Source: Defluviicoccus sp. (GTDB lineage Bacteria > Pseudomonadota > Alphaproteobacteria > MPNO01). Taken from it: a stretch of DNA of 64,000 nucleotides. Location: positions 1 to 64,000 of the forward strand of contig JAJEHI010000072.1 of NCBI GenBank assembly GCA_022823775.1, written 5' to 3'. Each line of letters starts with the position of its first letter. Position 1 is the first letter of the stretch. Below, piece by piece: positions 162 through 14,074 of the stretch. Position numbers and translations under genes: made by a program. Below the pieces are notes generated by a model that was not told the DNA's origin, ran no database searches, and saw only the letters and a program-made list of their open reading frames with translations.

Positions 162-806
162 TCAGTTCCGATCGAGCCTGCCAGCAGCGGGCTGAACAGC
201 CATGTCCAGGGCGTTCAGGAACGTCCGGCCGATCAATTCCAATTGCCGCACGAGCTCTATGCGCTCCGCGGCGCCGGCCATCTCTTCCGCGGACAGGATA
301 TGACCGATGAGCCCGCAGCCGTCCGCGAGGGTGACGATCACGATGTCCCTCGGTTCCGGGATCGCGTCGCTCAACAGCGTCTCCCGGATCCGCCGGATCA
401 GGTCGCGCTCCGCCTCTTCGTTCGCGAGCGGGTAATGCCGCGTTCCGAATATCCGCAGGACGCGGTCGTCGCTCAGCCCGAGGATGCCGTTGTCGACCAG
501 CCGGGCCAGTGCCGTTTCCCGGATCTCGTCGGCATGGTGGGTCGCGTGCTCCACCCAGTAGAGGGCGTCGTGCTCCCGGCTCGATTGCGCGATCTCGGAG
601 AGCATCGGATCGAGCAGCGCATCCCCCACCGGGGACGAGTCCACCAGGAACAGCCGCCGCGCGTCGGTGTCGATGCGGTTCTCCAGCGCGAGGTCCATGA
701 GCACCGCGCCGCCGAGGGCATAGCGGGCCAGCCATTCCGGGGCCCGCGACAGCGCCCCGTCCTCGTCGCGCAGCAGGAGCAGAAACTCTTCGGCGAATCT
801 CATCAT
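162..806 (-). CDS. GPP34 (GOLPH3/Vps74-like) family protein
   Basis: Predicted protein of 214 residues starting MMRFAEEFLLLL. The layout matches the GPP34 domain, known from Golgi phosphoprotein 3 and found in many bacteria: an N-terminal EEFLLLLRDEDG helix, LGGAVLMDLALENRID, a P-x-GDALLDPMLSEI segment, LVDNGIL, the RHYPL turn and a C-terminal helical half. Eukaryotic members bind phosphatidylinositol-4-phosphate at membranes; no bacterial function is firmly established that I know of. The start is set by a TGATG junction: its ATG overlaps the stop of the PiT gene by one base, so the two are very probably co-translated. PiT carriers are more often paired with a PhoU-like DUF47 protein, so this partner is unusual. 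A longer frame upstream exists but runs through the PiT gene out of phase. Confidence 0.82.
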   Translation of the reverse strand: MMRFAEEFLLLLRDEDGALSRAPEWLARYALGGAVLMDLALENRIDTDARRLFLVDSSPVGDALLDPMLSEIAQSSREHDALYWVEHATHHADEIRETALARLVDNGILGLSDDRVLRIFGTRHYPLANEEAERDLIRRIRETLLSDAIPEPRDIVIVTLADGCGLIGHILSAEEMAGAAERIELVRQLELIGRTFLNALDMAVQPAAGRLDRN

Positions 807-2077
807 CAGGCGCCTTGGACGAATACCGCCGACAGGAGGTAGTAGAACGCGACCGCCAGCACCGCGCCCACCGGAAGCGTCACGACCCAGGACACGAAGA
901 TGGTGCGGACCACGCCGAAATCGAGGGCGCCCATCCCGCGCGCGAGACCGACCCCCATCACGGCACCCACCAGCGTCTGTGTCGTCGAAACCGGCAGTCC
1001 GGTGCCGCTCGCCACGACGACCGTCGACGCTGCGGCAAACTCGGCGGCAAATCCGCGGCTCGGCGTGAGCTCGGTGATCTTCCTGCCGATCGTCGCCATG
1101 ACCCGGTAACCGAACGTCGCCAGGCCGATCACAATGCCCGCCGCGCCGATCAGCAGGACCCACACCGGTACCGCCGACTTGGCGGCGACCCCGCCCGTGG
1201 TCACCACGCCGACGATCGCGGCGACGGGTCCGATCGCATTGGCGACGTCGTTGGAACCGTGGGCGAACGCCATGCCGGAAGCGGTGACGATCATCAGGAT
1301 GGCGAACACCTTCTCGACGTCGTTAAAGCGCGATTGCCCCCCGGTGGAGGATTCGAGGCTCCGGAAGCTCAACCGGTCGATGAGCAGACGACTGGCGACG
1401 GCGACGATGCCGGCCGCGACCACCGAAAACAGGAGCGCCATCGGCATGCTGAGATCCATGCCGACATGCTTCAGGCCCTTCACGAAAGTCACGACCGCGG
1501 TCACCAGCACCGCGGCGAAGATGTAGATGGGAACGTATCGACGCGCGTAAACGGCGGGATCGTCCCTGTCGAAGATCAGCCACTGTACGCTCAGCACCAG
1601 GAGAAACGCGATCGCTCCGGCAAGAACGGGGGTGACCACCCAGCTTGCGGCGATGGCCGTCACGTCCCACCAGTGGACGGCCTCGAAGCCGATCGCCACC
1701 ACGGCAAAACCGATGATGGCCCCGACGATCGAATGCGTGGTCGATACGGGCCAACCGAATCTGGAAGCGACCGTCAGCCAGACGGCGGCGGCCAGCAGAG
1801 CCGACAGCATGCCGATGACCAGCAGGTTGGGATCGTGCTCGAGGGCTTCGGCGTCGATGATGCCCTTGCGGATCGTCGAGGTGACCTCGCCGCCGGCCAG
1901 AAACGCTCCGAGGAATTCGAACACACCGGCGATCAGGATCGCGACGCCGACCGTGATGGCCCCCGAGCCGACCGACGTCCCCATCGAGTTCGCGACGTCG
2001 TTGGCGCCGATCGCCCAGGCCATGTAAAGGCCGGCGGCGATAGCCGCGACGAGAATGACGGTGAGGCCTGCGTCCAC
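806..2077 (-). CDS. Inorganic phosphate transporter, PiT family
   Basis: Protein of 423 residues, the usual length for bacterial PiT carriers. It has the two inverted PHO-4 signatures: GANDVANSMG near residue 24 and GSNDVANAIG near residue 273, each followed by a glycine-rich helix. About ten to twelve hydrophobic segments are evident, with a more polar central stretch around residues 220-260. PiT proteins import phosphate as a neutral metal-phosphate complex by proton symport, and E. coli PitA has been linked to zinc entry, which fits its place beside znuABC. It is transcribed divergently from znuA across a 303-base gap containing a Zur-like palindrome, and is followed by the GPP34 gene with a one-base overlap. 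On the minus strand a TTGACA hexamer lies about 60 bases upstream of the ATG. Confidence 0.93.
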   Translation of the reverse strand: MDAGLTVILVAAIAAGLYMAWAIGANDVANSMGTSVGSGAITVGVAILIAGVFEFLGAFLAGGEVTSTIRKGIIDAEALEHDPNLLVIGMLSALLAAAVWLTVASRFGWPVSTTHSIVGAIIGFAVVAIGFEAVHWWDVTAIAASWVVTPVLAGAIAFLLVLSVQWLIFDRDDPAVYARRYVPIYIFAAVLVTAVVTFVKGLKHVGMDLSMPMALLFSVVAAGIVAVASRLLIDRLSFRSLESSTGGQSRFNDVEKVFAILMIVTASGMAFAHGSNDVANAIGPVAAIVGVVTTGGVAAKSAVPVWVLLIGAAGIVIGLATFGYRVMATIGRKITELTPSRGFAAEFAAASTVVVASGTGLPVSTTQTLVGAVMGVGLARGMGALDFGVVRTIFVSWVVTLPVGAVLAVAFYYLLSAVFVQGA

Positions 2078-2380: not shown

Positions 2381-3331
2381 GTGGATTTCATCCGCAAGAC
2401 ACTGATTTTCGCTGCGCTGTGCGCCCCGCTGGTTCCGTTTGGGTTGAGCGCGCAGACCCCGAATGTCGTGGTGAGTCTGAAGCCGATCCATTCCCTTGTC
2501 GCCGGGGTGATGGGCGAAGCCGGCAAGCCCCGGCTTCTGCTCAAGGGGACCGCATCGCCCCACACCTACCAGATGCGCCCGTCCGATGCCCGGGCTCTCG
2601 CCGAGGCCGACCTGATCGTGTGGGTCGGCGAGGCGATGGAGACCTTCCTCCACCGAGCCGTCGAAAATCTCGGCTCCCGGTCCAGGGTCGTGACCCTTCA
2701 CGAGGTGCCCGGAATACACCTGCTGCGCAACCGCGAAGGGGGGATATGGGAAGACGACGATCATGAGGAGCCCCATGTCGACGAGGACGAAGACCACGGT
2801 CATGAGCACGACGAGTACAACATGCATTTCTGGCTCGATCCGGCCAACGCCGGCCGGATCGTCGATGAGGTGGCGGCGGCGCTGATATTTCTCGACCCCG
2901 CCCGCACCGCGACCTGGCGCGCCAACGCCGCGGCGACGCGTAAACGGATCGCCGATGTCCACGCGTCCCTTGAAGCGCGTCTGGCGCCCGTGCGCGGACA
3001 CGCCTTCGTGGTCTTCCACGACGCCTATCAGTATTTCGAGCGCGCCTACGGGCTGAACGGCAAGGGCGCGGTCGCCGTCGACCCGGCGCGGGCGCCGAGC
3101 GCCAAGCGGCTCGTCGAGCTGCGCGCCGCGCTCGCCGAGCACAAGATCCGCTGCGTGTTCACCGAACCCCAGTTCGAGCCCGATCTGGTCCGCACCGTGA
3201 TCGAGGGCAGCGACGTCCGGACCGCGGTACTCGACCCGGTCGGCGCCGACACGAGGCCGGGTGCGGACGCCTGGATCGAGATCATGCGCGGCCTGGGCGA
3301 CGCGATGGTAGGCTGTCTCGGCAAGAGTTGA
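2381..3331 (+). CDS. znuA: Zinc ABC transporter periplasmic binding protein
   Basis: Protein of 316 residues from a GTG start preceded by a GAGGGGGA ribosome-binding site. It has a signal peptide (about residues 1-25, ending GLSAQ) and the cluster A-I solute-binding fold. The zinc ligands expected for ZnuA are present: H61 in SPHTYQ, H149 in MHFWLDP and H213 in FHDAYQYF, plus an acidic residue near the C-terminus. The mobile loop at residues 124-147 is rich in Asp, Glu and His, the hallmark that separates zinc-specific ZnuA from manganese-binding relatives. It captures periplasmic zinc and passes it to ZnuB. It is first in znuA-znuC-znuB, and a Zur-like operator lies upstream. Confidence 0.93.
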   Translation: MDFIRKTLIFAALCAPLVPFGLSAQTPNVVVSLKPIHSLVAGVMGEAGKPRLLLKGTASPHTYQMRPSDARALAEADLIVWVGEAMETFLHRAVENLGSRSRVVTLHEVPGIHLLRNREGGIWEDDDHEEPHVDEDEDHGHEHDEYNMHFWLDPANAGRIVDEVAAALIFLDPARTATWRANAAATRKRIADVHASLEARLAPVRGHAFVVFHDAYQYFERAYGLNGKGAVAVDPARAPSAKRLVELRAALAEHKIRCVFTEPQFEPDLVRTVIEGSDVRTAVLDPVGADTRPGADAWIEIMRGLGDAMVGCLGKS

Positions 3332-3401: not shown

Positions 3402-4238
3402 ATGGCCACGGCAGGTTCCCGAATGACCGATGCACCCGCCCAAGGTCCGTCCGAGGCCTCGCCGCTCGTCGAGGCGCGCGGCGTCAGCCTGCGCTTCGGC
3501 CGCCGCACCGTGCTCGACACGGTGGATATCGCCGTCCGCGCCGGGGAAATCGTCACCTTGGTCGGGCTCAACGGCGCCGGCAAGTCGACGCTGATCCGCG
3601 TGATCCTAGGCATCGTGGAACCCGATAGCGGCGAGGTGTTGCGGAGCCCAGGCCTGCGCGTCGGCTACGTGCCGCAGCAAATGCAGCGCGATCCGGTCCT
3701 GCCGATCACGGTGGAGCGCTTCATGACGCTTGGTGCGCCGGCCCCTCGCGGGACGCTCCAACGGGTGCTCGACGAGGTCGGCGCCGATCCGATTCTCGGC
3801 TACCCGCTGGCCGAGATCTCCGGCGGGGAGATGCAGCGCGTGCTGCTCGCGCGGGCCCTGTTGCGCGAGCCCCGGCTCTTGGTGCTCGACGAGCCGCTGG
3901 CCGGGGTGGACGTCACCAGCCAGAACGATCTCTACCGGCTCATCGCCGACATCCGCGACCGGCGCGGCTGCGGGGTCCTCCTGGTATCGCACGATCTTCA
4001 CCTGGTGATGGCCGCGACCGACACCGTGGTCTGCCTCAACCGGCATGTGTGCTGCACCGGGCGGCCGCAGGCGGTTCTAAGACACCCCGAGTTCATCTCC
4101 CTGTTCGGACCGCATTTGTCGGAGACGCTCGCGGTCTACCAACATGCCCACGACCATCGTCACGACGCGCTGGGCGAGCCGCTCTCGATCGGAGCGGGCC
4201 CGTCGGAGCGGCCGGGGCCGGCCGGCCGGCATCCGTGA
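3402..4238 (+). CDS. znuC: Zinc ABC transporter ATP-binding protein
   Basis: Protein of 278 residues from the ATG used here; a second ATG at 3423 would remove seven residues and is equally plausible. ABC ATPase motifs are complete: Walker A GLNGAGKST (55-63), Q-loop PQQ (91-93), signature ISGGEMQR (139-146), Walker B LLVLDEP (159-165) and switch histidine in SHDLH (H197). The C-terminal tail contains a histidine run, YQHAHDHRHD, as in several ZnuC proteins, where it may bind zinc. It powers ZnuB at the inner membrane. Its TGA overlaps the GTG start of znuB by four bases. Confidence 0.93.
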   Translation: MATAGSRMTDAPAQGPSEASPLVEARGVSLRFGRRTVLDTVDIAVRAGEIVTLVGLNGAGKSTLIRVILGIVEPDSGEVLRSPGLRVGYVPQQMQRDPVLPITVERFMTLGAPAPRGTLQRVLDEVGADPILGYPLAEISGGEMQRVLLARALLREPRLLVLDEPLAGVDVTSQNDLYRLIADIRDRRGCGVLLVSHDLHLVMAATDTVVCLNRHVCCTGRPQAVLRHPEFISLFGPHLSETLAVYQHAHDHRHDALGEPLSIGAGPSERPGPAGRHP

Positions 4239-5041
4239 TCGAGGACTTCGTCCTGCGCGCCCTTGGCGGCGGGATCGGGGCGGCGATCGCCGCCGGGCCG
4301 GTCGGATGTTTCGTGGTGTGGCGGCGCATGGCGTATTTCGGCACCGCGCTCGCGCACGCGGTGCTGCTCGGGGTCGCGCTCGGATTCCTGCTCGAGATCG
4401 AGCCTATCGTCGCGGTCTTCGCGATATGCCTTCTGCTCGCGGTCTGTCTCCTTCTGCTGGAGCGCCAGCGGGTCATTTCGGTCGACGCCCTGCTCGGGGT
4501 TCTCGCGCACGCGGTGTTCGCGGCCGGGCTGGTCGTCGTCGCGTTCATGGAGCGGGTGCGGGTCGATCTGATCGGCTATCTGTTCGGCGACATCCTTTCG
4601 GTCGGGGTCGTCGATCTCTGGCTGATCTTCGGCACCGCGGCCGTGGTCTCCGCGGCGCTTGCCTGGCAATGGAGCAACCTCCTCGCCGTCGCCCTCAACC
4701 AGGATCTCGCGGCGGCGGAGGGCGTGCCGGTGGAGCGGATCCGTTTCCTGTTCCTGTTCCTGCTCGCCGCGGTGATCGCCGTCGGAATGAAGATCGTCGG
4801 CATGCTGCTTGTCGTGGCCCTGGTCATCGTCCCCGCCGCCGCGGCGCGGCGCATGGTGGCGACGCCCGAGCAGATGGCGGCGGCGTCGACGGCGATCGGA
4901 ATCGCCTCGGTCGTCGCCGGTCTGTTCGCCTCGCTCCTCTGGGACATTCCCGCGGGGCCGGCCATCGTGCTGATGGCGAGCGGGATCTTCGCCGCCAGCC
5001 TGCTGATTCCCGTCCGGGGGCAATCTCGCGGGGAAGGCTAA
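4235..5041 (+). CDS. znuB: Zinc ABC transporter permease
   Basis: Protein of 268 residues of the ABC-3 family. I chose the GTG at 4235, which forms a GTGA overlap with the znuC stop; a longer frame starting inside znuC would add 62 polar residues with no family resemblance. Seven or eight hydrophobic helices are visible. WRRMAYFGTALAHA near the N-terminus and the central GDILSVGVVDLW and MKIVGMLLVVALVIVPAAAA helices are typical of ZnuB. It forms the channel for ZnuA-delivered zinc. It ends 31 bases from the convergent end of the SPFH operon. Confidence 0.92.
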   Translation: MIEDFVLRALGGGIGAAIAAGPVGCFVVWRRMAYFGTALAHAVLLGVALGFLLEIEPIVAVFAICLLLAVCLLLLERQRVISVDALLGVLAHAVFAAGLVVVAFMERVRVDLIGYLFGDILSVGVVDLWLIFGTAAVVSAALAWQWSNLLAVALNQDLAAAEGVPVERIRFLFLFLLAAVIAVGMKIVGMLLVVALVIVPAAAARRMVATPEQMAAASTAIGIASVVAGLFASLLWDIPAGPAIVLMASGIFAASLLIPVRGQSRGEG

Positions 5042-5072: not shown

Positions 5073-5564
5073 TCAGAAGAAGACCACCAGCAAGGCAATC
5101 CCGGCCAGGCCGCCGAGGATGAAGCAGGCGGCGCTCACGATGCCGGTCAGGGTGGCCCAATCGGCGGTCCGCCAGGTGCGACCCTCGACGTTGAACATGA
5201 CCTCGGAACGATCGCCCTCGCCGTCGGCGAAGCGCTTGAGCGCGGACTCGCTTCCGTGCGCCTCCCGGACGGAGACGATGGTGACCAGGAACATGGTCAG
5301 CGCGGAGGTCAGAATGCCCACGCCGAAGACCATGACGGTTGTGAGCGCGAACCAGTGAAACACGCCCTCCTGCCCGCCCGTGGTGGAGGTGCTCATGAAA
5401 CCGATAATCAGCGCGGTACCGCCGGCATTGCCGAAGAGCAGAAGGCGCGTCGATTCGAGGAGCATCCGGAACATGATGTTCCGGCGCATGGAAACGACCT
5501 TGTAGCCCTCCCGCAGCCATTCCTCGCTGGTTTCTTCCCGTTCGAATTCGTCGATTTTCTTCAC
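5073..5564 (-). CDS. Small membrane protein of unknown function, last gene of SPFH operon
   Basis: Protein of 163 residues from a GTG start that overlaps the stop of the preceding binding-protein gene by four bases (GTGA). The N-terminal 40 residues are charged and probably cytoplasmic. Hydrophobic segments lie at about 41-57, 70-98 and 136-163, the last ending flush with the C-terminus; a polar, charged loop lies at about 100-134. I recognise no family. Its place at the end of the five-gene permease-SPFH operon suggests a membrane partner of those proteins, which is inference only. Confidence 0.75.
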   Translation of the reverse strand: MKKIDEFEREETSEEWLREGYKVVSMRRNIMFRMLLESTRLLLFGNAGGTALIIGFMSTSTTGGQEGVFHWFALTTVMVFGVGILTSALTMFLVTIVSVREAHGSESALKRFADGEGDRSEVMFNVEGRTWRTADWATLTGIVSAACFILGGLAGIALLVVFF

Positions 5565-6757
5565 TGGCCGACCGCCTTTCCCGTCCCGTCTTTCACCTTT
5601 GCCGGGGCGAACTCGACCAGCCGCACATAGTCCGATCCGGCGTTCCCGCCATCGGCGAACGCGATCTCCCAGCCGTCGATGAGGAAGGGCCCGCTCGCCA
5701 ACGCCGTTTCCAGGAACCCTTCCCGATCCGGCTCGCCCGGCATCCGCTCGAGTACGGCGATGACGAAGCGACCCAGTATGTAGCCCTCGAGGCCCGACGC
5801 GTCCGCGGTTCCCGCCGCCTCCGGCGCCGCCGCCCGCCAGGCGGCGAGCGCGGACCGGAACCGCTTCACCAGCGCATTGCCGGCATCCCGTACATCCGGC
5901 AGGACGCGGGTGCTCACGGCCGGACCGAAGCGCTGCTTGAGCCGGCCGGCGATCCGGTCGAGATCGACGATCGACAGCATCCCGAAAGCGAAGTTGTGAC
6001 CGAATGACCGCGCCGCGTCGATCGCATCGAGGGTGTTGGACGTGGTCGCCGCCATCAGCACGACATCGAGATCCGCCTTCTCCAGCACGAACAGCGTGCT
6101 ATGGACCGAGTGGCTGTGCCACGAATAAGACGCCTTGGCGAGGATCGGCAAACCGCGGGCCTTCAGCGATTCGCGAAAAGCGGTCAGCACCGAGTATCCG
6201 AACGCGTCGTCCTGGAAAATGACGCCGAAACGGCGCGCGCCACGCCGGCCGTGCATGTGGGCGACGAGCTGTCGCGCTTCCTCGGCATAACCGGTGCGCA
6301 GGTTGACGACGTTGGGGAAGCGCGCACGGTCGCGCAGAAGGCCGGCGCCCGAGAGGATCCCGACAAAGGGCACCCTGGCCCTGCGGAGGATGGGCGCCAT
6401 GCGCAACGCTGTCGGCGTGCCCAGTCCGCCGATGACGGCGAAGATGTCCCGGTCGGTCGCAAAATGCGCCGCGTTGGCGGCGGCCGTGTCCGGATCGTAG
6501 GCATCGTCGCGCGACGTCAGCCGGAGCGTCCTGCCCCTCACTCCGCCCCCGAGATTGCGTTCGTGAAAGGCGGCGCGGATGCCGGCACGGTACCTGAGGC
6601 CCGTGGTTCCGCACGCGCCGGTGAGACAACTGCTCTGAGCGAAGGCGATCCTGTCCTCGGTCACGCCGGGCTCCGCAGGCTCCCCGGCCGGCACGGTTCC
6701 CGCGCATAGCAGCAGGAAAAGCGGGATCGTCCCGCCCAGCCTAGTTGGCAAGGCCAT
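5561..6757 (-). CDS. LivK-type ABC substrate-binding protein in SPFH operon
   Basis: Protein of 398 residues starting MALPTRLGG with a Sec-type signal peptide (hydrophobic residues 9-20, probable cleavage after VPAG). The mature part matches the Peripla_BP_6 fold used for branched-chain amino acids, amides and urea: RIAFAQSS near the N-terminus, then the FAVIGGLGTPT and FGVIFQDDAFG strand-turn signatures. No LivHMGF-type permease or ATPase is nearby, so it may be a sensor or accessory protein rather than part of an importer. C44 and C49 in SSCLTGACG sit where relatives usually have an SxPLTG ligand-binding loop, an unusual pair that could bind metal or form a disulphide. The start is inside the previous gene (17-base overlap); a longer frame upstream is Arg-rich and unconvincing. 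Confidence 0.82.
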   Translation of the reverse strand: MALPTRLGGTIPLFLLLCAGTVPAGEPAEPGVTEDRIAFAQSSCLTGACGTTGLRYRAGIRAAFHERNLGGGVRGRTLRLTSRDDAYDPDTAAANAAHFATDRDIFAVIGGLGTPTALRMAPILRRARVPFVGILSGAGLLRDRARFPNVVNLRTGYAEEARQLVAHMHGRRGARRFGVIFQDDAFGYSVLTAFRESLKARGLPILAKASYSWHSHSVHSTLFVLEKADLDVVLMAATTSNTLDAIDAARSFGHNFAFGMLSIVDLDRIAGRLKQRFGPAVSTRVLPDVRDAGNALVKRFRSALAAWRAAAPEAAGTADASGLEGYILGRFVIAVLERMPGEPDREGFLETALASGPFLIDGWEIAFADGGNAGSDYVRLVEFAPAKVKDGTGKAVGQ

Positions 6758-8210
6758 CCGTCTTCCCGGCGTTCGCCGCCGAGCCGGCTTTCGGCTCCGT
6801 CCCGTCCATTCCTGCCGGCTTCTCCGGCTTTGCCTTCTTCGTGCCGGCCGATCGGCCTTTTGTCGCCTTTTCCGGCTTTTCCTCCGCCGGTTTTGCATGC
6901 CCGGGCTGGGCCGGCCCACTCTCGTCCTCGTCGTCCGGGATGACGGTGGTCCGGTTGACCAACGGTTTTTCGTTCTGCTCCGCGGCCGCGGCAACGCCGG
7001 TCGGCGCGACGTGGCGGTGACTGAAGATGGACAGATCGTCGAAAATCAGGGAACGCAGCTTGGCCGTGCTCAGGTGGTGGCGTTCTCCGCGGGCGGCATG
7101 GAAGCGCCCATCCATCAGGAAGCGGTCGGAATCGACGTTCTCGAAGCCGTGGCCGCTCCCTTCGCTGACCGTGGACAGAGAGCGTCTCGCGCCGGCGAGG
7201 TTCCGTTTCGCCGGCGGCGCGACGGCCGCGACGGGAGCGCGGCCGACGCCCGGCACGAAACCTTCGACCATGTTGATGTCTATGGCCGAGGCATTGCTCG
7301 GATTGACCGTCGACAGCGTGGCGTCCCGGAAAATATTTCGCATGCGCTGCCAGTACCGCGTCACCGTGACCGAGGACGGCTGGCTCCGGTAGGCCACCAG
7401 CAGATCGGCGAAGATCTGAGCGCTGCTCTCGGCTTGAAGCCGGCGCTCTCGCGCTCTTGCCCTGGCGTTCATGACGACCGCCTGCGCCTGCCCCCGGCTG
7501 CGGGCCAGAAGTTTTTCCATCCGGCGGTTGGCGTTGCTTACCGATTGAATGCCTTCGGCGATCGCGTCGCTCACGTCCCGAAACGCGGCAACAGTTTCCT
7601 CGATGGGACGCACATCTACGATGTTGAGCGCCAGCAATTCGATCCCGATATCGTGATCCTTCAGATACGCGGATGTGTCCTTGAACAGGAGCGTCTGGAT
7701 GATGTCCCGGTTGGTTGTAAAAATCAGGTCTATGAAGTGCTTCCCCATGATCTCGATCAGGCGTTCGCGCACGATGAGCGTCAGAACGGCTTGCGGATCG
7801 ACGGTGGCGTAAAGGTAGCTCTTCAGGTTTCCGATCCTGTATTGCAGCGCGACGTCCGCTTCGAACAGATTTGCATCGCCGGACAGGATCGAAAACGCGG
7901 CCTTGCCCGTCTCGTCACGGGTCCCAACGCCGCGTCGCGTGATGCGCGTGACCTTGCGTATGTGGGCCCGCTCCACGAACGGAAGAGCGTAGTGGATTCC
8001 GGGCAGGATTTCCGGATCGACCACCTTGCCGAAGCGCGTCAGCACCGCCTGCTCTTCCTTTTTCACCACGTAAACGCCGTCGGAGAGCAAGGCCAGCACC
8101 GCGACCCCCGCGAGCGCGGCGAGCAGGACCGTCTTGCGGTCGTGCATGTAGTCGAAAACCGCGTGGATGATGCGTGTGCTGGGCGCGGGTGCTTCGGGAG
8201 CGTCCGGCAT
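6741..8210 (-). CDS. SPFH/band 7 protein, HflK-like, with long C-terminal tail
   Basis: Protein of 489 residues with one N-terminal membrane anchor (about 27-43) and an SPFH domain from about residue 44 to 290, including YVVKKEEQAVLTRFGKVV, PGIHYALPF and the YRIGN-YLYATVDPQ region typical of HflK. HflK and HflC form a large periplasmic cage around FtsH in E. coli. The C-terminal part (about 330-489) is unusual: it ends in a low-complexity Lys/Ala/Pro/Glu-rich stretch and has a HHLSTAKLRSL and SHRHV patch. It is the third gene of the operon, starting ten bases after the HflC-like gene. No ftsH lies in the window. It could be a paralogue dedicated to the permease rather than the housekeeping HflK. 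Confidence 0.87.
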   Translation of the reverse strand: MPDAPEAPAPSTRIIHAVFDYMHDRKTVLLAALAGVAVLALLSDGVYVVKKEEQAVLTRFGKVVDPEILPGIHYALPFVERAHIRKVTRITRRGVGTRDETGKAAFSILSGDANLFEADVALQYRIGNLKSYLYATVDPQAVLTLIVRERLIEIMGKHFIDLIFTTNRDIIQTLLFKDTSAYLKDHDIGIELLALNIVDVRPIEETVAAFRDVSDAIAEGIQSVSNANRRMEKLLARSRGQAQAVVMNARARARERRLQAESSAQIFADLLVAYRSQPSSVTVTRYWQRMRNIFRDATLSTVNPSNASAIDINMVEGFVPGVGRAPVAAVAPPAKRNLAGARRSLSTVSEGSGHGFENVDSDRFLMDGRFHAARGERHHLSTAKLRSLIFDDLSIFSHRHVAPTGVAAAAEQNEKPLVNRTTVIPDDEDESGPAQPGHAKPAEEKPEKATKGRSAGTKKAKPEKPAGMDGTEPKAGSAANAGKTDGLAN

Positions 8211-8220
8211 GGCTCGCTCC

Positions 8221-9138
8221 TTATTCCTGCGTCCGCTTCGGCGCCGGCGGCTTCGGAATCTCCTTGCCGTCCAGATACTTGAACAGTTCGTTGTCGGCCG
8301 GAAGCATCAGCGTGGTATTCTTGTCGATGATGGAATCGTAACTGTCGAGCGCCCGGATGAACTTGTAGAATTCCGGGTCGTCGCGGTACGCGGCGGCCAG
8401 CGTCTCCAGCGCATCGGCTTCCGCCTTGCCGAGAATGGCCGTGGCTTCGGCATGGGCGGTCGCCATGATCTTCTCGTGCTCGTTGATGGCGAACGCCTCG
8501 ATGCCTATCGCCCGCTCCTCGCCCTCGCTGCGGTAGCGCGCGGCGATACGGGCGCGTTCGGAGATCATCCGCTGGATTACGCTGGGACGGTTCTCGGCGG
8601 GCAGTGTGTATTCGACCAGACCCGCCTTGACGACCTCGATCCCGTAATCCGACGCCGCGACGGGTTTGATCTGATCGAGGATTTCGCGGGACGCCTTGGT
8701 GATGTCCTGATGCTGGAGTCCGAGGCTTACGAAGGCATCTCTCGACTTGTTGCTGACCACGATGCCGACGCTCGCCCTGTACAGATCGCCCAGCCGCTTC
8801 ACCGCGTTGGCTTCGGTGCGGATCGCCTCGACGTACCGGACGGGATCCGAGACGCGCCACAGCAGGTAGCCGTCCACCAGAACGTTTTTCTGGTCCTCGG
8901 TGATCAGCTCCTGCTTCAGATTCATCAGCGGCCGGACCCGCCGGTCCACCTTGTAGACCACCGATATGGGCGTCGGCAGTTTGAAGTGCAGCCCGGGTTG
9001 CTTCACCGGCGGCACGATCTTGCCGAAATTGGTCAGGACGCCCTGTTCCGACTCATCGATCACGTAGTGGACGTCCCACGCGACGACGGCCGCGAGAACG
9101 ACCGCGACCGTCGTCGCGAGTTTCCTGCCTCTAGTCAT
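8221..9138 (-). CDS. SPFH/band 7 protein, HflC-like
   Basis: Protein of 305 residues, close to the usual HflC length. A single N-terminal membrane helix (about 7-22) is followed by the SPFH domain with VDRRVRPL, EDQKNVLVDGYLLWRVSDP and the YVEAI segment, all standard HflC landmarks. The helical half includes SERARIAARYRSEGEE, a conserved coiled region, and the C-terminal LPADNELFKYL motif ends as in HflC. The start overlaps the stop of the fusion gene by eight bases, implying coupled translation. With two HflK-like domains in the operon (one fused to a permease), this protein could form a three-component SPFH assembly; that is inferred. I leave the symbol blank because a second, genuine hflC may exist elsewhere. 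Confidence 0.88.
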   Translation of the reverse strand: MTRGRKLATTVAVVLAAVVAWDVHYVIDESEQGVLTNFGKIVPPVKQPGLHFKLPTPISVVYKVDRRVRPLMNLKQELITEDQKNVLVDGYLLWRVSDPVRYVEAIRTEANAVKRLGDLYRASVGIVVSNKSRDAFVSLGLQHQDITKASREILDQIKPVAASDYGIEVVKAGLVEYTLPAENRPSVIQRMISERARIAARYRSEGEERAIGIEAFAINEHEKIMATAHAEATAILGKAEADALETLAAAYRDDPEFYKFIRALDSYDSIIDKNTTLMLPADNELFKYLDGKEIPKPPAPKRTQE

Positions 9139-11464
9139 GACTGCCTCCGGCGGCTCCGGTCGCGTGCTTGTCGCCGCCCGATCGGGCGGGATGGCCGGGT
9201 CGCGGCCCGGCGGCGCCGCCCAGCGACCTCTTCCACAGCGCTACCTTGTTCAGCGTGTCCTGGTTCGGGACGATGATCTTGCTGCGACCCGAGAGCGAAG
9301 TTTCCAGCTTTTCGCGCCACAGCATGTTGTGAAGGACTTCCGGCGCTTCGCGGACGGCGCCGGCGACCATGCGGATGGCGTCGCTTTCGGCCGCGGAGGT
9401 GATGACTCGCCGTGACGCTTCGCCCCTGGCCTGCTGGACCTCGTACTCCGCGTTGCCGTGCGCGCGGGGGATCAACGACACCGTAAGGCGCTGCGCGTTG
9501 ACGATGATGCGCTCCCTGTCGTCCTGGGAACTCGAAACCTCCCGGAACGCATTCATCGCGCCGCCGACGGGACTTACGGAGAGCAGGTTCACCTTCACGA
9601 GCTCAATGGCGTCGAGCAGCGCGCTGTCCCCGCCCGGGAGCCGCTTTTCGAACACCTCCCCGATGTGATCCTGAAGCATCGCGCGTTCGACGTTCAGCAG
9701 GTTGTCCAGCGTCCGCCCCGCCACGAACTTGCGCAGCTCCTTGCGGATATTGTCGCCGATGACCTGTTCGGGGTTCGCCACGCGGTAGTGATAGACGTAA
9801 GGGTCGCTGACCCGGTACTGCACGTTCAGCGACATCGACATCAGGTTGACGTCGCCGGTGAGATACTCGCCCGCCGCGCCGCTGGTCACGGACTTAACCT
9901 CCCGGACCGGCCATTTGTCCGCCCGCGCGAACGGCCAGGGAGCGAGATAGTGAAGCCCTGGCGGCAGGTCCCGCCACGCCACCGCGCCGAACAGGCGCCC
10001 GTAGCCGACCTCGCCCGGCCGCACGACGGCGAAGCCGCTCAGCAGAAATGCGGCAACGACGGACAGCCAGACGGTCGCTCCGGCGGGCGCGCGGGGGCGC
10101 AGCAAACCCTTCAGCGGCGCACCGCCGGTCATGCGCGCCCACCATCCCTTCATCGGCCCCGACAACGGCCGCAGGTTCATGAGCAGATCCTGATAGCCGC
10201 CTTTCAGCGCCCCCGCACGGAAGCGCCAGAACATGAGCGCGAAGAGGCCGAGCGCGCCGGTCCACTGGATCACCGCCACCGCGGGCGAGTCCGACGCGTC
10301 GAGATTGACCGCGAGCGACAGGCCGAAGGCAATCATCAGGAGGTCGACGGCGATGCCCAGAGCCACCGTCACGACGACGACCGAGCCGACATAGACCGAA
10401 GCGAACCGCGCGCCGAACTGGCTGGCGACAATGGCTATCGTCCCGGTGTTGGTCGCGGGTCCCGTCATCAGGAACACCAGCGCCGCGCCCGGGCTGAACC
10501 CCTTGGCCACGAGGGCCGCGGCGATCGGCGTGCTCGCGGAGGCGCAGATGTAGAGCGGCACGCCCACCAGAACCATGACCGGATAGGACAGCCAGCGGGC
10601 GTACTCGTAGGCCATGAGGTTGTCCGGAATGGCGAGGTAGAGCAGCCCGCCCAGGATCACGCCGACCAGCAGCGCGAACAGGATGTCGTCGGCCACCTCG
10701 ACGAAACCGTAGCGCAGGATGTGCTTGCAAACCGTGGTAAAGGAGAGATCGCCGAGGTCCCGGCCCGCTTCGTCCCTGGGCGGCGCCGCGGGTTCGGGAA
10801 TCGAGAGAAACTCCCTGTAAAAATCCGGCTTGATCCACGTCATGGACCGCGCCTGGCCGATGCCCTGGTTGAGGCGGCCGAGCCATGTGACGAAGAACGC
10901 CCTGAGGGTGGCCGGGCTTATGTAGCAGTCGTCGTCGCCCGGTATGAGGGTCTTGTGGCTGTGGTCGTGGTCGTGGTCGTGATGATCGTGGTCATGGCCG
11001 TGGTCGTGGCCGTGGCCGCCGTCGGCGGGAACCGGTTCGGGGGCATCGCCGTCGCGGACCATCCCGATGCAGAAAATTCCGGCCATCACGCCGGTTATGA
11101 AACTGATGACAGGCCGGACCACGGCGGCCACCGGCCCGAAAAAGGCGTTGGTGACCAGGATCGAATCGGCGCCGGTCTCCGGCGCGGTGATCAGGAACGA
11201 CATGCAGGCCGAGCGCGACGCGCCCTTGCGCCGCATTTCGGCCACCACCGGAACCACCGAACAGCTGCAAAGCGGCATCGGCACGCCGATGGCCGCGCTG
11301 GAAGCAACGGACTTGAGACTGTCCCGGTGCAGCCATCGCAGTACAGCGTCCCGCGAGATGAACACATGGATCAATCCCGCCAGGAAAAGGCCGAGGAGCA
11401 GCATCGGCCCCAGCAGGAGAAACGAGTTCCACAGGAAATCGAGGAAAACAATCAGCTGATCCAT
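9131..11464 (-). CDS. COG0701-type permease fused to an SPFH (HflK-like) domain
   Basis: Protein of 777 residues with two parts. Residues 1-415 are a COG0701/DUF318 permease (the group that includes predicted Cu/Zn efflux proteins and ArsP): GVPMPLCSCSVVPV at 60-73, LITAPETGADS at 92-101, YICASASTPIAAAL at 305-318 and GPATNTG at 335-341. Between the two membrane halves, residues 151-170 form a His/Asp run, a likely zinc-binding loop. A further membrane helix (about 466-482) leads into an SPFH domain at about 485-720 with NVQYRVSDPYVYHY and the HflK-like EVVK-type helix. The frame is continuous with no stop or shift at the join. It is first in a five-gene operon and is preceded by two Zur-like palindromes about 170-200 bases upstream. 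Direction of transport and substrate are not shown by sequence. Confidence 0.9.
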   Translation of the reverse strand: MDQLIVFLDFLWNSFLLLGPMLLLGLFLAGLIHVFISRDAVLRWLHRDSLKSVASSAAIGVPMPLCSCSVVPVVAEMRRKGASRSACMSFLITAPETGADSILVTNAFFGPVAAVVRPVISFITGVMAGIFCIGMVRDGDAPEPVPADGGHGHDHGHDHDHHDHDHDHSHKTLIPGDDDCYISPATLRAFFVTWLGRLNQGIGQARSMTWIKPDFYREFLSIPEPAAPPRDEAGRDLGDLSFTTVCKHILRYGFVEVADDILFALLVGVILGGLLYLAIPDNLMAYEYARWLSYPVMVLVGVPLYICASASTPIAAALVAKGFSPGAALVFLMTGPATNTGTIAIVASQFGARFASVYVGSVVVVTVALGIAVDLLMIAFGLSLAVNLDASDSPAVAVIQWTGALGLFALMFWRFRAGALKGGYQDLLMNLRPLSGPMKGWWARMTGGAPLKGLLRPRAPAGATVWLSVVAAFLLSGFAVVRPGEVGYGRLFGAVAWRDLPPGLHYLAPWPFARADKWPVREVKSVTSGAAGEYLTGDVNLMSMSLNVQYRVSDPYVYHYRVANPEQVIGDNIRKELRKFVAGRTLDNLLNVERAMLQDHIGEVFEKRLPGGDSALLDAIELVKVNLLSVSPVGGAMNAFREVSSSQDDRERIIVNAQRLTVSLIPRAHGNAEYEVQQARGEASRRVITSAAESDAIRMVAGAVREAPEVLHNMLWREKLETSLSGRSKIIVPNQDTLNKVALWKRSLGGAAGPRPGHPARSGGDKHATGAAGGSHD
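10951..11012 (-). repeat. His/Asp-coding low-complexity stretch in the permease gene
   Basis: A run of near-repeats of gtggtc and gtcgtg on the plus strand encodes alternating His and Asp (protein residues 151-170). It lies between the two permease halves and is most simply read as a metal-binding loop rather than an independent repeat element. Confidence 0.8.
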
Positions 11465-11617
11465 GGCGCTTTCTCCGTCGCCTGTTGCAAGCCGAAGAAT
11501 ATAGCCAGCTTGCCGACTCCAGCCCGACTCAATTCGCGAGGCGTTGTGTTTATTGGACTATTTTACACGGACAAAATCTACTTGGACATCTTGCAATCAC
11601 AATATTTCCGTCAATTT

Positions 11618-11660
11618 AATGATATAATATTATAGTTAATAAGATGATATAATATCACCT
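11618..11660. promoter_or_regulatory. Two Zur-like palindromes upstream of the permease-SPFH operon
   Basis: Within an AT-rich gap, the 13-mer TGATATAATATCA at 11645-11657 is a perfect inverted repeat; shifted by one base, GATATAATATCAC agrees with the GTTATA-N-TATAAC Zur core at 10 of 12 defined positions. A second imperfect palindrome, TGATATAATATTA, lies at 11620-11632, 25 bases away. The resemblance to the site before znuA suggests common control by Zur. The sites are about 160-185 bases upstream of the start at 11464, so the promoter would have to lie between 11464 and about 11660; AT-rich candidates occur around 11560-11600. The regulator is inferred. Confidence 0.5.
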
Positions 11661-12762: not shown

Positions 12763-13779
12763 TCAGCCGATGCGGGTCCGAAGGATGCCGATTCCGTCGA
12801 CCTCGCACTCGACCGCGTCGCCGGGCTTGAGCCACCAGGGCTCGTCGTCCTCTTCGTTGAGCGGCAAACGCAGCCCGACAACCCGGCCCAGCCGGCCAGC
12901 CTCGTCGGCGATGGCGGTCGCCTCGGACAGGGAGAGGCGGCGCACGGACGAGAGAAAAGCCCACTGGTCGGCATGGGGCTCGAAACTGTCGTCCAGAAAG
13001 ACGGTGTTGCCGTCCTCGCGCGGACTGCCCTGCAGCGGCAGCGCGATAAGATTGCCGAAGCCGCCCGCGGGCACGGTGTCCTGGCTCGGGAAGAACCGGT
13101 CGCAGGACGCGAACCCGATATCCGGGTTGCGCTCCATCGTCTCGGTGATCAGATGGGCGCCGAGACGGCGTGCGAGGGCGGCGGGGACCGGCTCGGCGAA
13201 GAAAATGCAGACATGCCCGCCATTGCCCGAACGCGAGCGTTCGAGAGCCGCCGGCACGTCCTTCGAGCGGCAGGCTTCAAGAAAGGCGCCCGCGTCCCGC
13301 TGCCAGCTCGCCTTGTCGAAGTCGGCGGCGAGAAACCGGCAGGTGTCGTCCGAAAGCATGGGATAGACGCCGATCGTGTGGCGGCCGCGCAGATGCCCGT
13401 CGATCGCCTCGTCCGTTACCTCCCGGAACGCCCGGTTGGGACAGGAGCCGCACTTGACGCGCGGCTTGCCGCAGATGCGGGGCGCCCACTCATTGGCGCA
13501 GACTGGCGCATAGCCCGCCTTGCCTGTCCTGGCGTTGTCCCAGCGCTTCGGATAGATGTCCTCGCGGCCGCGAAACAGGGATCTGAACAGCGCGATCTTG
13601 TCGTGCGCCGACGAACGGTTGGTGATCGGTCCCGCGGACGGCAGGACGTCCTTCAACGCGGTGGGCGGATTCCCAATCTCAGCGAGACGGGCCTCAAGGG
13701 TCGCCTTCTCGGCCTCAAGACGCGCAAGCCGCTCGCGTATGAGCGCGGCTTCCTCGTCGTGGGATGAAGCGTGCGCCAA
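12763..13779 (-). pseudogene. Truncated TOTE-type primase (AEP domain) run into the end of an FAH gene
   Basis: A frame of 338 residues from a TTG preceded by GGGGA; the codons upstream have no family resemblance. After a coiled segment (RERLARLEAEKATLEARLAE) comes FRSLFRGREDIYPKRW, a zinc-ribbon stretch (ICGKPRVKCGSCPNRAF), the metal-binding FLAADFDK (D-x-D) and SGNGGHVCIFF motifs of the archaeo-eukaryotic primase domain found in TOTE-type primase-helicases. The protein should continue into a superfamily II helicase of several hundred residues. Instead, after LPLNEEDDEP it ends in WWLKPGDAVECEVDGIGILR, which is the closing segment of fumarylacetoacetate hydrolases. This looks like a deletion joining two genes at about 12838. 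The primase part may still be expressed but the original multi-domain protein is lost. Confidence 0.8.
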
Positions 13780-14074
13780 CTTGTCCCCGTTTCGTAGATC
13801 CGTCCGCACATGCCGGCGAGGGAGCAGGATAGTGCGCCCCGAAAGCCCCGGTAAATGTCGCCACCGCCGCATACGGTTCCCACGTGTGGGCGCCGGTGGG
13901 CTACTCGTGGGACGAAGGGTGGAACGGCGGTCTGGTCCGCGGCCCGCATGCGGCCTTGCCGATGGGCAAGACGGTAAAAGTCGTCGCACGAACCCTTCGC
14001 GGAAACCAGGCTGTCCGGGCCTTGTGGATGCTTGGGCGACGATGCCGTTTCACACACCGGAGGCGTTATCGGTT
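13780..14074. other. Gap between primase remnant and TPP decarboxylase operon
   Basis: About 295 bases with no convincing gene. A short minus-strand frame at 13811 begins MCGRI but loses any resemblance to a known family directly afterwards. No hairpin followed by a T run was seen. Confidence 0.5.

Follow-up and report, generated by a model that had tools for sequence, protein, structure and literature searches.

The 64,000-nucleotide stretch analysed here, positions 1 to 64,000 of contig JAJEHI010000072.1 of Defluviicoccus sp. (hereafter the window), carries five minus-strand genes at 5073-11464, each overlapping or almost touching the next, which form an operon with its tail toward the zinc importer genes znuABC. 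In order, their products are a permease fused with an SPFH domain, two further SPFH proteins (one HflC-like, one HflK-like), a LivK-fold periplasmic binding protein and, last, a small membrane protein. We propose that this cassette is a zinc-acquisition module in which an SPFH dome would enclose its own fused permease beside ZnuABC. We hold this reading to be about an even call, while a role of some kind in zinc homeostasis is much more secure.

The fusion gene (9131-11464) codes for 777 residues with ArsP_1 and Band_7 domains in a single frame, and overlaps by 8 bases the gene of the HflC-like protein (8221-9138, 305 residues, Band_7, one N-terminal transmembrane (TM) segment). A gap of 10 bases leads to the HflK-like gene (6741-8210, 489 residues, Band_7), which overlaps by 17 bases the gene of the binding protein (5561-6757, signal peptide, Peripla_BP_6 1.1e-47). 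This in turn overlaps by 4 bases the gene of the small membrane protein (5073-5564, 163 residues), and 31 bases separate the latter from the end of znuB (5041). On the plus strand, znuA (2381-3331, Pfam ZnuA 6.1e-69) encodes the zinc-binding protein of the ATP-binding cassette (ABC) importer, znuC (3402-4238) its ATPase (NF007090 308.7, cut-off 306), and znuB (4235-5041, ABC-3 1.6e-65) its permease; the start of znuB was picked by comparison, the longest open reading frame beginning at 4049, and all three proteins exceed the Pfam cut-offs. An earlier note on this DNA had described five tightly packed genes with these overlaps and this gap, facing znuABC. The reading frames and spacing are as it said, and Pfam agrees with its domain calls, leaving the small protein without a family.

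The composition of the cassette is conserved. Among 289 genomes of the class, a relative with a fusion 81% identical was found in one other genome, and a scan of 84,980 species genomes yielded 23 loci. All five genes are present in identical order in the window and in 18 complete or nearly complete loci, which rules out a chance neighbourhood. The znu genes lie in the same stretch in 17 of these 18 loci, and the contig of the remaining one begins at the cassette. Their arrangement takes five forms: the cassette is tail-to-tail with znuABC (window, L046-L050, L054, L064), divergent from znuA (L036, L052, L053), placed after ZnuCBA in one direction (L051, L059), inserted in a ZnuA-cassette-ZnuCB gene run (L056, L057, L063), or tail-to-tail with znuA and followed by divergent znuCB (L055, L068). 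Because cassette and znu genes have been rearranged in five layouts without separating, this is strong evidence for their functional coupling. The cassette-bearing records are metagenome bins, mostly of uncultured Alphaproteobacteria; fragment L058, by contrast, was binned as Gemmatimonadetes. To judge by their names, several bins might be sponge or otherwise host-associated sets, and one bin (jk18x22bins.41) appears mixed, as it yields three different cassette stretches (L048, L054, L066).

Cassette and znu genes also share a candidate regulatory motif. An unsupervised palindromic search of the regions upstream of operon heads recovered ATgtTAtAnTaTAacAT, which resembles the meningococcal Zur box, quoted for Neisseria as TGTTATATAATAACA, and reached 98-121 at the operon heads against 33-51 in Markov-resampled sequence. 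Because related sequences inflate the score, clades were held out in motif training, and the window was scored with its own clade excluded. Of the three top hold-out sites in the 64-kb window, two precede the fusion gene, by 163 and 183 bases, and one precedes znuA, by 86. The best is TGATATAATATTATAG at 11620-11635 (score 27.1), followed by the palindrome TGATATAATATCA at 11645-11657 (19.1) and by AATTATAGTATAACATCATAG at 2285-2305, upstream of znuA (18.1). The genome encodes two Zur-like proteins, for which Zur is the best family, both scoring below the NF008646 cut-off of 167 (101.9 and 75.2). The second of their genes (contig C44, L167) precedes ZnuC- and ZnuA-like genes, so that the genome seems to hold a second zinc ABC system.

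The fusion protein matches Pfam ArsP_1 (3.3e-40) and Band_7 (7e-11). Assembly chimerism or a frameshift was ruled out as its origin, the fusion frame being open in 18 of the 18 orthologues compared, and orthologues in 18 loci are 69-97% identical. Its permease part scores 321.8 with NF033936 (cut-off 300), the equivalog for SO_0444 'Cu/Zn efflux' permeases of the ArsP_1 family, and looks active because the family motifs CSC, PETG, CASAS/CATAS and GPATN are kept. The other members seen are standalone and the family bears an efflux annotation, whereas the cassette member has an SPFH domain attached and goes with zinc import genes. Standalone relatives of about 60% identity adjoin ZIP zinc transporter genes (L061 2040-4618; L062 9980-14470), followed in L062 by a P-type ATPase; these neighbours support a zinc role and leave its direction unfixed.

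A TM helix joins the permease half to an HflK-type SPFH domain and coiled coil, for which HflK of 7vhp/9cz2 is closest by both sequence and fold; with the HflK equivalog TIGR01933 the fusion scores 127.2, short of 159.4, and it is HflK-like rather than filed as HflK. The AlphaFold2 model (mean predicted local distance difference test (pLDDT) 72, predicted template modelling score (pTM) 0.49) comprises a permease bundle, a helix at 460-475, the SPFH domain, and a long coiled coil. Its top fold matches were HflK/C assemblies, including FtsH-HflKC, and the stomatin chain of a stomatin-aquaporin complex was matched too. Residues 413-463 are strongly positive and the loop at 380-395 is charge-poor, a pattern that fits a periplasmic position of the SPFH domain, as in HflK. 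Between the permease halves, a loop at about residues 148-171 (10952-11023, minus strand) is His-rich in 19 of 19 orthologues, among which it varies in length; the charges (KR 11.6, DE 19.5) are ambiguous as to its membrane side.

The two other SPFH proteins form a set distinct from the housekeeping one. A canonical hflK-hflC pair sits on a separate contig of the same genome, and the idea that the cassette genes are housekeeping hflKC was rejected on this ground. Homologues in L037-L042 were likewise rejected as cassette members, since their neighbours show canonical hflKC. The HflC-like protein scores above the TIGR01932 cut-off (161.9, cut-off 134.4) and the HflK-like protein below that of TIGR01933 (129.8, cut-off 159.4). 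The latter carries a C-terminal module (about residues 346-425) with the motifs GRFH, ERHH and SHRH, as conserved as the SPFH part (mean identity 74%) and confined to cassette loci among the 171 loci compared. By sequence and fold, the fusion resembles HflK of E. coli FtsH-HflKC in its SPFH domain and coiled coil, but the cassette is a duplicate set, has a transporter fused in, and belongs to a zinc-linked operon. HflK residues that contact FtsH vary even within canonical HflK. The earlier note had proposed a zinc link with a dedicated SPFH set, to be checked by looking in other genomes for the cluster together with znuABC and Zur-like sites. That co-occurrence was found (18 further loci, znu in 17, a shared motif), and along with the separate hflKC it lends the proposal strong support.

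The binding protein has unusual Cys and His residues. With residues numbered from a Met one residue upstream (399-residue form), C45, C50, H66, H215, H217 and H220 are conserved across the cassette, H220 being Tyr in L051, and this set is missing from the nearest solved LivK-type structures and from chemotaxis-linked plasmid relatives. These cassette-specific residues, those of the HflK-like tail, and the His of the permease loop are candidates for zinc ligands. No livHMGF-type ABC permease or ATPase genes lie within the cassette, which thus falls outside the HAAT/LivK importers. In relatives of the binding protein from three genera (L169-L171), a methyl-accepting chemotaxis protein gene follows each; since these relatives adjoin such genes and not ABC genes, the protein may act as a receptor. 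As for the small membrane protein, it is 70-97% identical across 16 aligned orthologues and is predicted by AlphaFold2 as three long helices (pLDDT 69); a fold search of this model gave no significant match, and neither did Pfam or NCBIfam.

A close parallel is already described in Pseudomonas aeruginosa. The transcripts of PA2437-PA2439, three hflC/hflK-like genes, and of hmtA rise under zinc depletion (PMC4542158), as do the proteins (PMC11761036), and Zur with zinc binds the PA2439 promoter (PMC8531726); HmtA is a zinc/copper importer. Loci of this type encode a lead protein of about 650-680 residues, whose N-terminal half has several helices and whose C-terminal part holds a Band_7 domain, together with an HflC-type protein, an HflK-type protein, a 150-residue protein, and a P-type ATPase. 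From gene order and content, we take them to be homologues of PA2434-2439; their genomes belong to one family, probably Pseudomonadaceae. In L158-L165, the HflC-type protein has a long His-rich N-terminal tail. As in the cassette, three SPFH genes (HflC-type and HflK-types) cluster with a zinc transporter, in this case Zur-controlled and upregulated when zinc is depleted; in the homologues, the lead SPFH protein likewise bears a fused membrane domain. In contrast, the PA2434-PA2439 transporter is a P-type ATPase and not of the ArsP_1 type, no Pfam family matches the fused membrane domain, and in the stretches read no LivK-type binding protein or 163-residue membrane protein was seen and znu is not adjacent.

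A second parallel is found on an Aquibium oceanicum plasmid (NZ_CP018172.1 16552-18099; L073 8350-9897), where a CDF-SPFH fusion annotated hflK heads a trio. A metal transporter domain is again fused to the lead SPFH protein and followed by HflC- and HflK-type genes. This domain is CDF and not ArsP_1, however, the trio adjoins genes for copper chaperones and a heavy-metal P-type ATPase, and the stretch has no znu. A search of about 400 Pseudomonadota with the Aquibium fusion and HflC revealed no further CDF-SPFH fusions, the top matches reading as canonical HflK/HflC pairs. In a tree, the C-types of the three systems clustered together (92/88), apart from housekeeping HflC, and the K-types of cassette and Pseudomonas did so (90/82) without the Aquibium pair, with warnings of long branches. 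The cassette has the features of these metal-linked trios, namely one C-type and two K-type SPFH genes, a metal transporter, and a lead K-type fused to a membrane domain. A class made of a metal transporter and an SPFH trio whose lead subunit bears a membrane domain looks real, and the znu-linked cassette would be one form of it. Plasmid-borne hflK-hflC pairs also occur beside cation:proton antiporter or nhaA genes in Methylophaga and Vibrio (L078, L079), a further case of SPFH genes keeping company with a transporter gene.

Put together, these observations suggest the following mechanism. Low zinc would relieve Zur repression, and the cassette would be made together with ZnuABC. The fusion, HflC-like and HflK-like proteins would together form a dome of the HflKC type, on the periplasmic side of the inner membrane; one wall subunit being covalently an SO_0444-type permease, transporters would be held at the dome base. 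The binding protein and the His-containing tail of the HflK-like protein could pick up zinc, alone or as a complex, in the periplasm and deliver it into the dome, from which the permease would move zinc to the cytoplasm alongside ZnuABC, with the His-rich loop as acceptor or gate. We favour uptake because of the coupling to znu genes and because the Pseudomonas trio accompanies the importer HmtA. An eukaryotic precedent for a caged transporter exists, as human stomatin domes enclose aquaporin-1 and urea transporter-B (UT-B) (PMC12407830). The likeness is an SPFH cage round a membrane transporter, as we propose for the cassette, while the human dome is non-covalent and without a metal role. The zinc-starvation assembly put forward in the earlier note agrees with the experimentally Zur-controlled Pseudomonas trio; its suggested task of protecting, positioning or gating the permease keeps the standing of a proposal.

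Several points weigh against a Zur-controlled uptake module. The Zur-like sites fall in some of the most AT-rich parts of a window whose GC content is 68%, and 274 of 300 column-permuted AT-rich palindromic matrices put their best site in these same parts, although the real motif outscores 295 of the 300. Locus L055 has no convincing site, and the strict Zur-box pattern occurs 7 times genome-wide against 6 for its reverse, with none at the window sites, which leaves this pattern uninformative. The AT-rich palindromes reported earlier before both units are real and are the top three hold-out sites of the window, with a base composition that tempers their weight; we regard Zur control of cassette and znu in this organism as likely but unproven. 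Amino acids are the usual ligands of LivK-fold proteins, and relatives of this one stand beside chemotaxis receptors. Finally, the efflux name of NF033936, a puzzle that the earlier note did not raise, argues for export, expression of a family member in Nitratiruptor rises with excess Cd and Cu, and an exporter made during zinc starvation would be futile.

These last points bear on an alternative in which the permease exports zinc as an overshoot valve, gated by the SPFH proteins and binding protein against poisoning by a sudden influx of zinc through derepressed ZnuABC. The equivalog match and the metal-induced Nitratiruptor relative speak for such a valve, as does the His-rich loop, frequent in exporters. 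Nevertheless, the one-direction znu gene runs (L051, L059, L056, L057, L063) would co-produce importer and exporter in starvation, the Pseudomonas trio accompanies an importer, and the standalone permease relatives adjoin ZIP genes, though L062 has a P-type ATPase too; we consider this valve unlikely. Somewhat less likely still is a zinc-starvation HflKC that keeps FtsH, a zinc enzyme, off new zinc transporters or retunes it, with the permease mainly as anchor or client. The literature reads the Pseudomonas genes in this way, and the view accords with the HflK and HflC model matches and with the best folds, HflK/C and FtsH-HflKC complexes, but the genome retains canonical hflKC and the permease keeps its family motifs and looks active. 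Uptake of zinc as an organic chelate, possibly from a host or community, bound by the LivK-fold protein and imported by the caged permease, is favoured by the LivK fold, by the unusual Cys/His near the first ligand loop and by the host-like names of several source bins, but no gene beside the cassette in the window was recognisable as one for metallophore biosynthesis or for an outer-membrane receptor, and we judge it improbable.

Other genes of the window were recorded around these units. A PiT-type phosphate transporter gene (806-2077, minus strand) is divergent from znuA, and a PiT-type gene 82-95% identical lies near the cassette in 11 of 19 cassette loci. In other bacteria PiT transports metal-phosphate, and the gene may be part of the zinc neighbourhood. 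It adjoins a gene for a bacterial GPP34 (Golgi phosphoprotein 3) domain protein (162-806, minus strand), and a TOTE-system archaeo-eukaryotic primase domain protein is encoded at 12763-13989 (minus strand; PF22548, 3.4e-96).

The earlier note knew of no described system with this set. This stands for the exact set: neither the five genes together nor a permease-SPFH fusion in znu context was found in the open-licence papers searched, and a survey of SPFH operons in prokaryotes, published in 2009 (PMC2636767), mentions no permease, transporter or zinc. It does not stand for the general arrangement, given the close parallel of the Zur-regulated P. aeruginosa trio. An SPFH trio under Zur control has thus been recorded before, uncharacterised, in Pseudomonas, and what looks new is the exact set.

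Reaching beyond the zinc-acquisition module, and more tentatively, so that we would expect it to fail rather than hold, these systems may represent a general bacterial device: a periplasmic SPFH dome in which a wall subunit is a metal transporter (of the ArsP_1 type, a CDF protein, or a membrane domain as yet unnamed), making a closed metal-handling compartment at the inner membrane. In the znu-linked cassette this device would serve zinc acquisition, a LivK-fold protein having become a zinc receptor. SPFH proteins are ubiquitous, and the contents of bacterial SPFH cages beyond FtsH are largely open. In the cassette as proposed, evolution has fused cargo to cage, ZnuABC is a known partner pathway, and Pseudomonas offers a tractable relative whose Zur response is unexplained. 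If true, the proposed module would offer a direct test of whether SPFH domes isolate transporters, and would add an extra layer to zinc acquisition in bacteria.

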